From contig NZ_CP019936.1 of NCBI RefSeq assembly GCF_002009425.1, positions 4,017,297-4,081,296 on the forward strand: a stretch of DNA of 64,000 nucleotides, read 5' to 3'. Positions 30,254 to 33,091 of this stretch are shown here, in pieces. The translations under genes were made by a program, and so were the position numbers. The number at the start of each line of letters is the position of its first letter. Position 1 is the first letter of the stretch. Under the pieces are notes generated by a model. It was not told the DNA's origin, made no database searches, and saw only the letters and a program-made list of their open reading frames with translations. The DNA is from Thiosocius teredinicola. Its GTDB lineage: Bacteria; Pseudomonadota; Gammaproteobacteria; Chromatiales; Chromatiaceae.

Positions 30254-30931
30254 GTGATTCGCTTCGATAATGTCGCCAAGCGCTATGCCACGGGCCACGA
30301 AGGCCTGTCGGGGGTAGACCTGCATCTCGAACCCGGCGAGATGGCCTTCGTCACCGGCCATTCAGGCGCCGGCAAAAGCACCCTGCTCAAGCTGATCGGC
30401 CTGCTCGAACGCGCCACGCGCGGCCAGGTCTGGGTCAACGGCCGCAACCTGAACAAGCTCAAGAATCGCGATGTGCCCTACCACCGTCGCGAGGTCGGCA
30501 TGATCTTCCAGGATCACCGGCTGCTGCACGATCGCACCGTGTTCGACAATATCGCGCTGCCGCTGGTGGTCGCCGGCATGGGTCACGGCGAGATTAAGCG
30601 CCGGGTTCGCGCGGCGCTCGACAAGGTCGGTCTGCTGAAGAAAGAGAAGGTGTTCCCGATTACCCTGTCCGGGGGCGAACAGCAGCGCGTCGGTATCGCG
30701 CGTGCACTGGTCAGCAAGCCGCCGGTTCTGCTGGCCGACGAACCAACCGGCAACCTCGACCCCGACTTGTCGCGTGAGATCATGGAACTGTTCCTGCAGT
30801 TCAATCAGGTCGGCGTGACGCTGTTGATCGCCACCCACGATGTCGAACTGGTCGACCGACTGGGTAAACGCATCGTCAACCTGCGTAACGGCCGGGTTGC
30901 CGCCGATACCGGCGACGAGGCGGACGACTGA
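30254..30931 (+). CDS. ftsE: Cell division ATP-binding protein FtsE
   Basis: A 225-residue ABC ATPase. Walker A GHSGAGKST (about 35-43), Q-loop EVGMIFQDHRLL, signature LSGGEQQRVGIARA near 138 and Walker B VLLADEPTGNLDP near 158 are present. With FtsX it activates periplasmic peptidoglycan hydrolases at the septum. The start is a GTG. The stop overlaps the ftsX ATG (TGATG). Confidence 0.97.
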   Translation: MIRFDNVAKRYATGHEGLSGVDLHLEPGEMAFVTGHSGAGKSTLLKLIGLLERATRGQVWVNGRNLNKLKNRDVPYHRREVGMIFQDHRLLHDRTVFDNIALPLVVAGMGHGEIKRRVRAALDKVGLLKKEKVFPITLSGGEQQRVGIARALVSKPPVLLADEPTGNLDPDLSREIMELFLQFNQVGVTLLIATHDVELVDRLGKRIVNLRNGRVAADTGDEADD

Positions 30932-31890
30932 TGGCCGGCCGCAAAAAGAGCAGCGGATTCAAACGCAACCGCAGCCCGAGCACCTGGCTGCTGCGGCACG
31001 CACAGATGTCGCTGGCTTCGCTCGGCCGCTTGAGCAGGAGCCCGGTCAGCACACTGATGACCGCAGCGGTGATCGGCATCGCGCTGGCGCTGCCGAGCGG
31101 CCTGCACCTGATGGTCGACAACGTGCGCGGCATCAGCAGTACCTGGGAAGGCAGCGCGAGTATCTCGCTGTTCCTCAACGAAGCGGTCAGCAACGAACAG
31201 GCCGAAGCCGTGCGTGCCCAGGTCGCCCAGCGCGGCGATGTGGCGGAAACGCGCCTGATCGACCGTGACAAGGCGCTCGCCGAGTTCCGCACCCTGTCGG
31301 GATTCGGCGAAGCGATCGAACTGCTCGACAGCAACCCCCTGCCGCCCGTGGTGATCGTGCGCCCGAGCGAGAATGTGCAAGGTACCGAAGCCGTCGGCCG
31401 CATGGCGGATGAGCTGCAGGCCTACCGCGAGATCGACATCGCCCAGGTCGATCTGCAGTGGGTTGCGCGCCTGACTGCGATCACCGGCACGATCGAACGT
31501 GCGGTGATGATCCTCGCCGCCTTGCTCGGCGGCGCCGTGCTGCTGATCGTCGGCAACACCATCCGCCTCGAAATCCAGAATCGGCACAGCGAGATCGAGA
31601 TCGTGAAACTGGTCGGCGGCACCGACGCCTTCATCCGCCGCCCGTTCCTCTACGAGGGTCTGTGGTACGGCCTGCTGGGTGCCACGATTGCGCTGTTGCT
31701 GGTGCTGATCTCGCTGTATCTGCTCGCCGGCCCGGTGCAACGTCTCGCAGGCCTGTACGAATCGGATTTCTCCCTCGCGTTGATCGACCCACTCAGTCTG
31801 GCCGGCGTGTTGCTCGGCGGTCCGCTGCTCGGCCTCGCCGGCGCCTGGCTGGCGGTCGGTCGCCATCTGGCCGACGTGCAACCCGAATAA
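30931..31890 (+). CDS. ftsX: Cell division protein FtsX
   Basis: A 319-residue permease-like protein: cytosolic basic tail (KKSSGFKRNRSPSTW), first helix (LMTAAVIGIALALPSGLHLMV), a periplasmic loop of about 120 residues with the FtsX fold (ISLFLNEAVSNEQAEAV), then three C-terminal helices around VMILAALLGGAVLLIVGNTIRLEIQNR and the final transmembrane segment. It transmits the ATPase cycle of FtsE to septal hydrolases. It ends the operon; a structured region follows. Confidence 0.96.
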   Translation: MAGRKKSSGFKRNRSPSTWLLRHAQMSLASLGRLSRSPVSTLMTAAVIGIALALPSGLHLMVDNVRGISSTWEGSASISLFLNEAVSNEQAEAVRAQVAQRGDVAETRLIDRDKALAEFRTLSGFGEAIELLDSNPLPPVVIVRPSENVQGTEAVGRMADELQAYREIDIAQVDLQWVARLTAITGTIERAVMILAALLGGAVLLIVGNTIRLEIQNRHSEIEIVKLVGGTDAFIRRPFLYEGLWYGLLGATIALLLVLISLYLLAGPVQRLAGLYESDFSLALIDPLSLAGVLLGGPLLGLAGAWLAVGRHLADVQPE

Positions 31891-31967
31891 CTAGGCCGGG
31901 CGGTGCCGCGGCCTGGGTGACATCCTTCGCACATCCGCACTAAACATTTCGCAGAAGGGCCCGTTAA

Positions 31968-32012
31968 GGCGCTGAGCGTTCGCGCGATACCCGTCCGAGC
32001 GGGTCGAGCGCC
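31968..32012 (+). terminator. Nested hairpin after ftsX, possible terminator
   Basis: ACCCG/CGGGT (31989-32004) lies inside GGCGCT/AGCGCC (31968-32012). A weak A/T-rich stretch follows rather than a U run, so termination strength is uncertain. Confidence 0.35.
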
Positions 32013-32054
32013 ACAATATATTTAATATTGATATCAAATAGTTAGACAACCGGC

Positions 32055-32083
32055 GGAACTTTGACGCCTGGTTAGCACTCTTA
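32055..32083 (+). promoter_or_regulatory. Sigma-E-like promoter of rpoH
   Basis: GGAACTT (32055-32061), the classic sigma-E -35, is followed after 17 bases by TCTTA (32079-32083), close to the TCTGA-type -10. Known rpoH genes have a sigma-E-driven promoter. Spacing is one base longer than the most common 16. Confidence 0.5.
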
Positions 32084-32098
32084 CCCGCGGACTGCTAA
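32072..32098 (+). promoter_or_regulatory. CIRCE operator (HrcA site) 1 upstream of rpoH
   Basis: TTAGCACTC, nine bases, then GACTGCTAA. The CIRCE consensus is TTAGCACTC-N9-GAGTGCTAA, so the left half is perfect and the right differs at one base. It covers the -10 of the sigma-E-like promoter and most of a sigma-70-like pair TTAGCA / TAAAAT (32072-32077, 32096-32101, 18-base spacer). Confidence 0.75.
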
Positions 32099-32104
32099 AA
32101 TGCA

Positions 32105-32131
32105 CTAGCAGTCGAAAAATCAGAGTGCTAA
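32105..32131 (+). promoter_or_regulatory. CIRCE operator (HrcA site) 2 upstream of rpoH
   Basis: CTAGCAGTC, nine bases, then GAGTGCTAA. The right half is perfect, the left has two mismatches. It lies 33 bp (centre to centre) after the first site, in the predicted rpoH leader, which suggests cooperative HrcA binding over the promoter and start region. Confidence 0.72.
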
Positions 32132-32166
32132 ATTCAGGCTAGGAAGAGGATTTGGGTAACAGACCT

Positions 32167-33018
32167 ATGAGCAATCAACTTGCGATACCGATGACGCTAC
32201 CGACCGGCAATATGGATGCCTATATCGGGGCGGCTTTTCAACTGCCGATGTTGTCGGCGGAGGAAGAGCACGATCTCGCTGTGCGCCTGCGCGACCAACA
32301 GGATCTGGACGCCGCGCGCCAATTGGTCATGTCACACCTGCGTTTCGTCGTACGCATTGCCCGCGGCTACAACGGCTATGGCCTGCCGCAGAACGATCTT
32401 ATCCAGGAAGGTACGGTCGGCCTGATGAAGGCCGTGCGGCGCTTCGACCCGGACATGGGCGTACGCCTCGTGTCGTTCGCCGTGCACTGGATCAAGGCCG
32501 AGATCCACGAATACATCCTGCGCAACTGGCGCATCGTCAAAGTGGCGACGACCAAAGCGCAGCGCAAGCTGTTCTTCAATCTGCGCAGTGCGAAGAAGCG
32601 TCTCGGATGGTTCTCGCAACAGGAAGTCAACCAAGTCGCCGAGGATCTTGGGGTTAAACCCGAAACCGTGGTTGAAATGGAGTCGCGCCTGTTGAACTAC
32701 GATGTCGCGTTCGATGGCGCAGATGCCGACGATGACGACAGCACCAGCTTTGCACCGGCCGCCTACCTGCCCGACCTGCGGCACGAGCCGTCGATCATGC
32801 TCGAAGATGCGGATAGCGCCGAATCGGAGCGCGATGGCCTGTATTCAGCGCTCGAATCGCTGGACGACCGCAGTCGCGACATCCTGCAGCGCCGCTGGCT
32901 GAACGAAAGCAAAGAGACGTTGCACGAGCTGGCGGATGAGTACGGCGTGTCGGCCGAACGTATTCGTCAGATCGAGGCGGCCGCAATGAAGAAGCTGCGC
33001 AGCAAACTCGCCGCCTGA
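32167..33018 (+). CDS. rpoH: RNA polymerase sigma factor RpoH (sigma-32)
   Basis: A 283-residue heat-shock sigma factor. It begins like the family ([21 protein letters not shown]), has region 2 ([25 protein letters not shown] and [20 protein letters not shown]), the sigma-32 signature [14 protein letters not shown], and region 4 helix-turn-helix ([25 protein letters not shown]). It directs transcription of chaperone and protease genes. ATG 32167 fits homologues; a TTG just upstream has poor spacing. Two CIRCE operators and a sigma-E-like promoter lie before it, and a strong terminator follows. Confidence 0.97.
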
Positions 33019-33045
33019 TCGGCCAAGACCAAAACCCCAACAAAC

Positions 33046-33072
33046 AAACGCCCGCAGCCTGCGGGCGTTTTC
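33046..33072 (+). terminator. Intrinsic terminator of rpoH
   Basis: AAACGCCCGCA and TGCGGGCGTTT form an 11-bp stem around a GCC loop (33057-33059), followed by Ts. Confidence 0.95.
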
Positions 33073-33091
33073 ATCTGTGCCGAGGGGAAAC

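Follow-up and report, generated by a model that had tools for sequence, protein, structure and literature searches.

Predicted HrcA operators overlap promoter-like sequences upstream of rpoH in Thiosocius teredinicola and in much of its class

Results

The rpoH locus and its upstream region

The stretch of DNA analyzed here, 64,000 nt long and referred to as the window, carries on its plus strand a gene (32167..33018) whose 283-aa product scores 406.7 bits against the sigma-32 model TIGR02392, above the cut-off of 323.1, so that its assignment as rpoH in the earlier note is confirmed. The ATG at 32167 was taken as the start because it is the one that aligns with those of the relatives. A strong hairpin of 11 pairs lies 3’ of the gene at 33046-33070, which the scan calls terminator-like on the minus strand.

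Between ftsX (30931-31890; TIGR00439, 352.5 bits) and rpoH sits a pair of CIRCE elements, the operators of the repressor HrcA. The arms were scored against TTAGCACTC / GAGTGCTAA, that is, over 18 arm letters and with a spacer of exactly 9 nt. With up to three mismatches allowed, this pattern matches only two places in the whole window, both on the plus strand: CIRCE 1 (32072..32098), a predicted operator of the form TTAGCACTC-N9-GACTGCTAA with 1 mismatch of 18, and CIRCE 2 (32105..32131), a predicted operator of the form CTAGCAGTC-N9-GAGTGCTAA with 2 mismatches of 18. The earlier note had described the two elements with these positions, mismatches and spacers, and the pattern search and the shuffles agree with it: shuffled versions of the window contain on average 0.03 sites, and none of 100 contains two. 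The elements are offset by 33 bp, which corresponds to about three helical turns and would put both on roughly one side of the helix, an arrangement that would suit paired binding. The mismatch of CIRCE 1 is in its right arm (32090-32098), which reads GACTGCTAA instead of GAGTGCTAA. Since this variant recurs in 15 of the 146 rpoH sites pooled below, several relatives included, the mismatch may be functional.

CIRCE 1 also lies across two promoter-like sequences on the same strand, as the earlier note had proposed. The first begins with an exact (7/7) sigma-E-type -35 box, GGAACTT, at 32055..32061. The -10 motif recognized by sigma-E is TCNNA, and a search for it 15-17 nt downstream of the box finds, after N17, the putative -10 element TCTTA (32079..32083), which takes its TC from the end of the CIRCE 1 left arm and its TTA from the start of the spacer; the commoner spacing among rpoH sites is 16. 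The second, TTAGCA-N18-TAAAAT (32072-32101), is sigma-70-like and coincides with CIRCE 1, its second hexamer being preceded by TG and forming a putative extended -10, (TGC)TAAAAT, at 32096..32101 that overlaps the right arm. It is the sole promoter-like match in a scan of 31880-33080, for which shuffled sequences average 0.4 matches. The arms thus do overlap promoter-like hexamers, as would be expected if an extended -10 and a sigma-E -10 had come to mimic CIRCE arms by chance; against this stand the absence of any shuffle with two sites and the comparative counts given below.

HrcA, RpoE and other CIRCE sites in the same genome

The genome encodes a full-length HrcA (PF01628, 3.3e-66; TIGR00331, 335.1 bits, above the 197.2 cut-off), whose presence the earlier note had suggested verifying, and it also encodes RpoE (TIGR02939, 319.5 bits, above the 236.15 cut-off). 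The search for further CIRCE sites, suggested in the same place, covered the 4.79-Mb genome at up to three mismatches and returned four, two at rpoH and two in the groES upstream region; the pattern read backward, used as a control, matched once. The groES sites have 1 and 3 mismatches and lie 88 bp apart, and because the backward control gives one match, the 3-mismatch site taken alone could be due to chance. A sigma-32-like promoter, CTTGACT-N12-CCCCTATT, was recognized by eye just 5’ of the proximal groES CIRCE.

No CIRCE precedes hrcA itself, the best match in its upstream region having 8 mismatches; autoregulation is common among HrcA systems but not defining. The strict sigma-E pattern has no match before rpoE, where AGAACTT-N16-TCAAT, which fails that pattern, was noticed by eye. 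About 1.2 kb past hrcA, an open frame (L001:3416-3670) resembles GrpE by eye; this 85-residue piece has no NCBIfam match at 1e-10, and a minus-strand frame lies between it and hrcA.

Conservation among relatives

We searched 38 genomes of relatives, 34 of which have an RpoH at E 1e-80 or better. The upstream regions were read for the 30 of 35 RpoH matches that had loci, the five without a locus being left out. A CIRCE with the N9 spacer and up to three mismatches precedes rpoH in 25 of these 30 loci and is absent from five (L031, L033, and L020, L022 and L023 of the same family). Within the genus, eight members were read; in a ninth, G006, rpoH is split over contigs and falls outside this count. 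All eight keep CIRCE 1 and an identical GGAACTT amid flanks in which the majority of columns vary. Six of them also have a second site, offset by 33 or 34 bp and matching at up to three mismatches; in the other two it is degenerate. The paired N9 elements, whose fate in close relatives the earlier note had proposed to compare, are therefore retained throughout the genus for the first site and in most of its members for the second.

These data bear on whether the sites could be fossils, kept by descent and no longer regulating rpoH in this lineage. CIRCE 1 and CIRCE 2 do carry 1 and 2 mismatches, the second sites of some relatives have decayed, and the three same-family rpoH genes mentioned above have no site at all. 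Nevertheless, CIRCE 1 persists in all eight genus members amid mostly variable flanks, a full-length hrcA is present, and the site is mostly gone from genomes in which no hrcA was found, for which reasons we regard decay without function as very unlikely.

Association of the rpoH site with hrcA across the class

The class was represented by 140 genomes, of which only the genome of the window and one other share a family code. CIRCE (up to two mismatches) was found in 107 of them, RpoH in 130 and hrcA in 105. The survey comprises 131 rpoH genes from those 130 genomes, with all upstream regions read and CIRCE sought within 350 nt; the ten genomes lacking an RpoH match at E 1e-55 lie outside these 131 rows, and seven of the ten have hrcA.

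At up to three mismatches, CIRCE precedes rpoH in 90 of the 99 cases with hrcA vs 5 of the 32 in which hrcA was not found; at up to one mismatch, the corresponding values are 78/99 and 4/32. Only 1 of 6550 shuffled rpoH upstream regions passes. The spacer is just as specific: a length of 9 gives 95 matches and a length of 8 gives one, while lengths of 5-7 and 10-13 give none. Among the nine rpoH genes without a site despite the presence of hrcA, those of G121 and G058 keep the right arm only; among the five with a site and no detected hrcA, one site is perfect (G142). One genome with hrcA, G054, has two rpoH copies (G054:C289 and G054:C325; L180 and L203), one with CIRCE and the second without. 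A second site, even at up to five mismatches, accompanies only 4 of the 95 class-survey sites, at offsets of 30-33 bp. Tandem sites are characteristic of this genus and of a small number of others; the general form is the single composite element described below. The predicted HrcA-rpoH wiring, judged from the co-occurrence of operator and repressor gene, is common to much of the class, and most genomes without hrcA lack it.

The same survey helps to assess whether the inverted repeats act mainly in RNA, as leader hairpins that affect stability or heat-dependent translation, with HrcA binding of minor importance. CIRCE in the 5’ leaders of Bacillus affects the mRNA; CIRCE 2 would be within the transcript from either promoter, and in the folded leader the CIRCE 1 right arm is paired with the CIRCE 2 left arm. 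However, the folding of the leader is no better than that of shuffled sequences (z -1.42; 20 of 200 as good) and an Rfam search of it gave 0 matches, so that an RNA thermosensor in the rpoH leader is unsupported. In addition, much of CIRCE 1 would stay untranscribed, since it overlaps the promoter elements, and what is conserved is the exact operator letters and the spacer of 9, in a site that is mostly missing where hrcA is missing. We therefore assign a primary role in RNA a very low probability, and retain the reading of both elements as HrcA operators.

A composite of operator and promoter elements

To describe the surroundings of the site, 241 rpoH upstream regions were pooled; 157 have a site, and 146 sites were left once duplicates were removed. 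GGAACTT, in at least 6 of 7 positions, precedes the TC of the left arm by 16-17 nt in 81 of the 146 (60 at 16 nt and 21 at 17). Shuffled flanks average 0.4 such boxes, with a maximum of 4, and the mirror side of the palindrome has 1. Among the class-survey sites taken separately, the box precedes 47 of 95 at 6 of 7 or better and 62 of 95 at 5 of 7. The spacer begins with TNA, completing TCTNA, in 76/146 rpoH sites vs 15/146 when they are read from the other strand. Counted on either strand, TNA is found in 83/146 rpoH sites vs 6/45 non-rpoH CIRCE sites among the matches listed; three of the 45 come from G103, a genome in which no rpoH was found, so an rpoH site may be among them. At the other end, 91 of 146 sites have AAT or TAT next to the right arm, producing TGCTAAAAT or TGCTAATAT, compared with 4 of 146 on the mirror strand; the third base after the arm is T in 129 (25 on the mirror strand). 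From these flank counts it follows that in the CIRCE of rpoH the left arm is fused to a putative sigma-E -10 element and the right arm to a putative extended -10.

The composite was also searched for without reference to rpoH, as the exact pattern GAAC-N13-16-GCACTC-NNA-N6-GASTGCTAA, in 397 genomes of the phylum. It matches once in each of ten genomes, all belonging to the class of the window, and nine of the ten matches are located just upstream of rpoH. The tenth (G086; L244:1501-1542) lies before clpB (NF008118, 832.8 bits over the N-terminal 464 residues). The rpoH of G086 has no CIRCE, and the composite of this genome seems to be directed at another heat-shock gene.

Named genomes and the ancestry of the arrangement

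A set of named genomes, the best 80 of 591 confirmed RpoH loci, provided a sample partly independent from the class survey; L096, for which there was no upstream sequence, was dropped from the counts. Within these best 80 of 591, the site precedes rpoH in 37 loci, including those of Alcanivorax, Dyella, Methylocaldum, Pseudoalteromonas and Haliea and those of the betas Variovorax, Trinickia, Pandoraea, Diaphorobacter and Sulfuritalea; no rpoH CIRCE was found in the Pseudomonas, enteric, Halomonas and Photobacterium loci of the same set. The site is present in 35 of 40 named genomes with hrcA vs 2 of 39 without it, leaving five and two exceptions. The enteric genomes in this set have neither hrcA nor the site, which fits the remark in the earlier note that no standard example is known in model enterics. 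Taken together, the N9 pair kept in the relatives’ loci and its tracking of hrcA in the class survey and in the named genomes refute the chance resemblance considered above, to which we attach practically no probability.

On the RpoH tree, hrcA and CIRCE change 10 times each, and only 2 independent pairs fall on supported branches (median p 0.5). Because the test with two pairs is weak, the Fisher values of the hrcA-CIRCE association are not taken as free of shared ancestry. Two loci on this tree deserve separate mention. Pseudoalteromonas luteoviolacea (L095) has a perfect rpoH CIRCE together with an HrcA match that is highly divergent (46.6 bits, E 1.2e-11), and its tree neighbors have neither CIRCE nor HrcA; its HrcA is possibly a degenerate or regained repressor. 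A genome titled Verrucomicrobia (L080) has CIRCE and an RpoH that groups with one from the Nevskiaceae (support 99); this bin is probably mislabelled or contaminated.

The sigma-E-type promoter is also found where the operator is not. It precedes 24 of the 37 named rpoH genes (best 80 of 591) that have neither hrcA nor CIRCE; in the equivalent part of the class survey, it precedes 4 of 27, with a rate in shuffled sequences of 45/2620. By eye, L053, which has no hrcA, reads GGAACTT-N16-TCTTA with TTTACACTC where TTAGCACTC would stand. Apparent left-arm remnants of CIRCE were likewise seen by eye in the rpoH sigma-E promoters of L090 and L097 as well as L053, all without hrcA. The distribution of the promoter suggests that the sigma-E promoter of rpoH is older than the operator or outlasts it.

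Discussion

A predicted circuit linking HrcA and sigma-32

The earlier note had proposed that placing rpoH under HrcA would link two heat-shock systems, and this link is supported by the presence of hrcA, by the N9 elements kept in the genus and by a site that tracks hrcA throughout the class. What needs correction is its scope, since the link, as predicted for this genome, is not special to it and appears to be shared across much of the class. We consider it highly probable, from the arrangement of the sequence elements, that HrcA represses rpoH at both its sigma-E and its sigma-70 promoter and leaves the operators once GroEL is titrated. The available text of a paper on HrcA systems states that HrcA activity depends on GroE and that the repressor is released upon GroEL titration (PMC6032397).

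In such a circuit, as long as GroEL is free, HrcA dimers would occupy CIRCE 1 and CIRCE 2 and both promoters would be closed to RNA polymerase. Once GroEL is engaged by misfolded proteins, HrcA would lose its activity and rpoH would be transcribed, with sigma-70 providing a basal level and sigma-E acting under envelope stress. Sigma-32 would then direct the transcription of chaperone genes including groESL, which itself has a sigma-32-like promoter and CIRCE sites. HrcA would thus repress rpoH and groESL in parallel, forming a coherent feed-forward loop, and newly made GroEL would restore HrcA, closing the loop as a negative feedback.

A broader reading joins these observations. The single composite, whose CIRCE arms would serve at the same time as the -10 elements of a sigma-E and a sigma-70 promoter, may be the ancestral rpoH promoter of the Gammaproteobacteria in a wide sense (betas included), where it would make sigma-32 synthesis depend jointly on the occupancy of GroEL and on envelope stress. 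In enterics and Pseudomonas, the rpoH promoters would then be remnants after the loss of hrcA, with the sigma-E promoter kept, the operator decayed and a half-site left in some. We favor this scenario by a narrow margin over its being wrong.

If the circuit operates as predicted, a repressor that senses GroEL would control rpoH transcription in most members of the class that carry hrcA, and this repression would be joined, at one DNA element, to an envelope-stress sigma factor. In E. coli, sigma-32 is controlled mainly at translation, together with chaperone binding and proteolysis, and our control search found no HrcA in that organism. The textbook picture drawn from E. coli would then represent a derived state.

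Comparison with known systems

The P3 promoter of enteric rpoH is sigma-E-dependent and has the form GGAACTT-N16-TCNNA before the gene. It has no HrcA operator, whereas in the element described here CIRCE is built into the -10.

The HrcA-rpoH link looks widely conserved and little described. In the literature consulted, mostly open-access text and as such weak evidence of absence, we found no description of the composite and none of HrcA controlling rpoH throughout the class. The closest precedent is Geobacter sulfurreducens, in which a 2004 study predicted a perfect CIRCE lying 51 nt upstream of rpoH (PMC545781, in its accessible part). As in the genome studied here, CIRCE precedes rpoH, hrcA is present and an HrcA-to-rpoH link was predicted; in contrast, G. 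sulfurreducens has one site instead of two and belongs to another phylum-level lineage (PMC545781). This precedent qualifies the suggestion of the earlier note that the circuit may be little described. The accessible part of the same study, with reference to previous publications on beta, gamma and epsilon proteobacteria, gives groESL as the only constant HrcA target (PMC545781). On the sequence evidence presented here, rpoH would be a nearly constant target of HrcA in this class, and that statement would have to be revised.

The best-known HrcA/CIRCE systems are those of groESL and dnaK in Bacillus, Helicobacter and others, which share with the present one the operator and the repressor family; according to the available text of the paper cited above, HrcA in systems of this type covers core promoter elements and depends on GroE (PMC6032397). 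The difference is in the target, which is a chaperone operon in the Bacillus and Helicobacter systems (PMC6032397) and the gene of the heat-shock sigma factor here.
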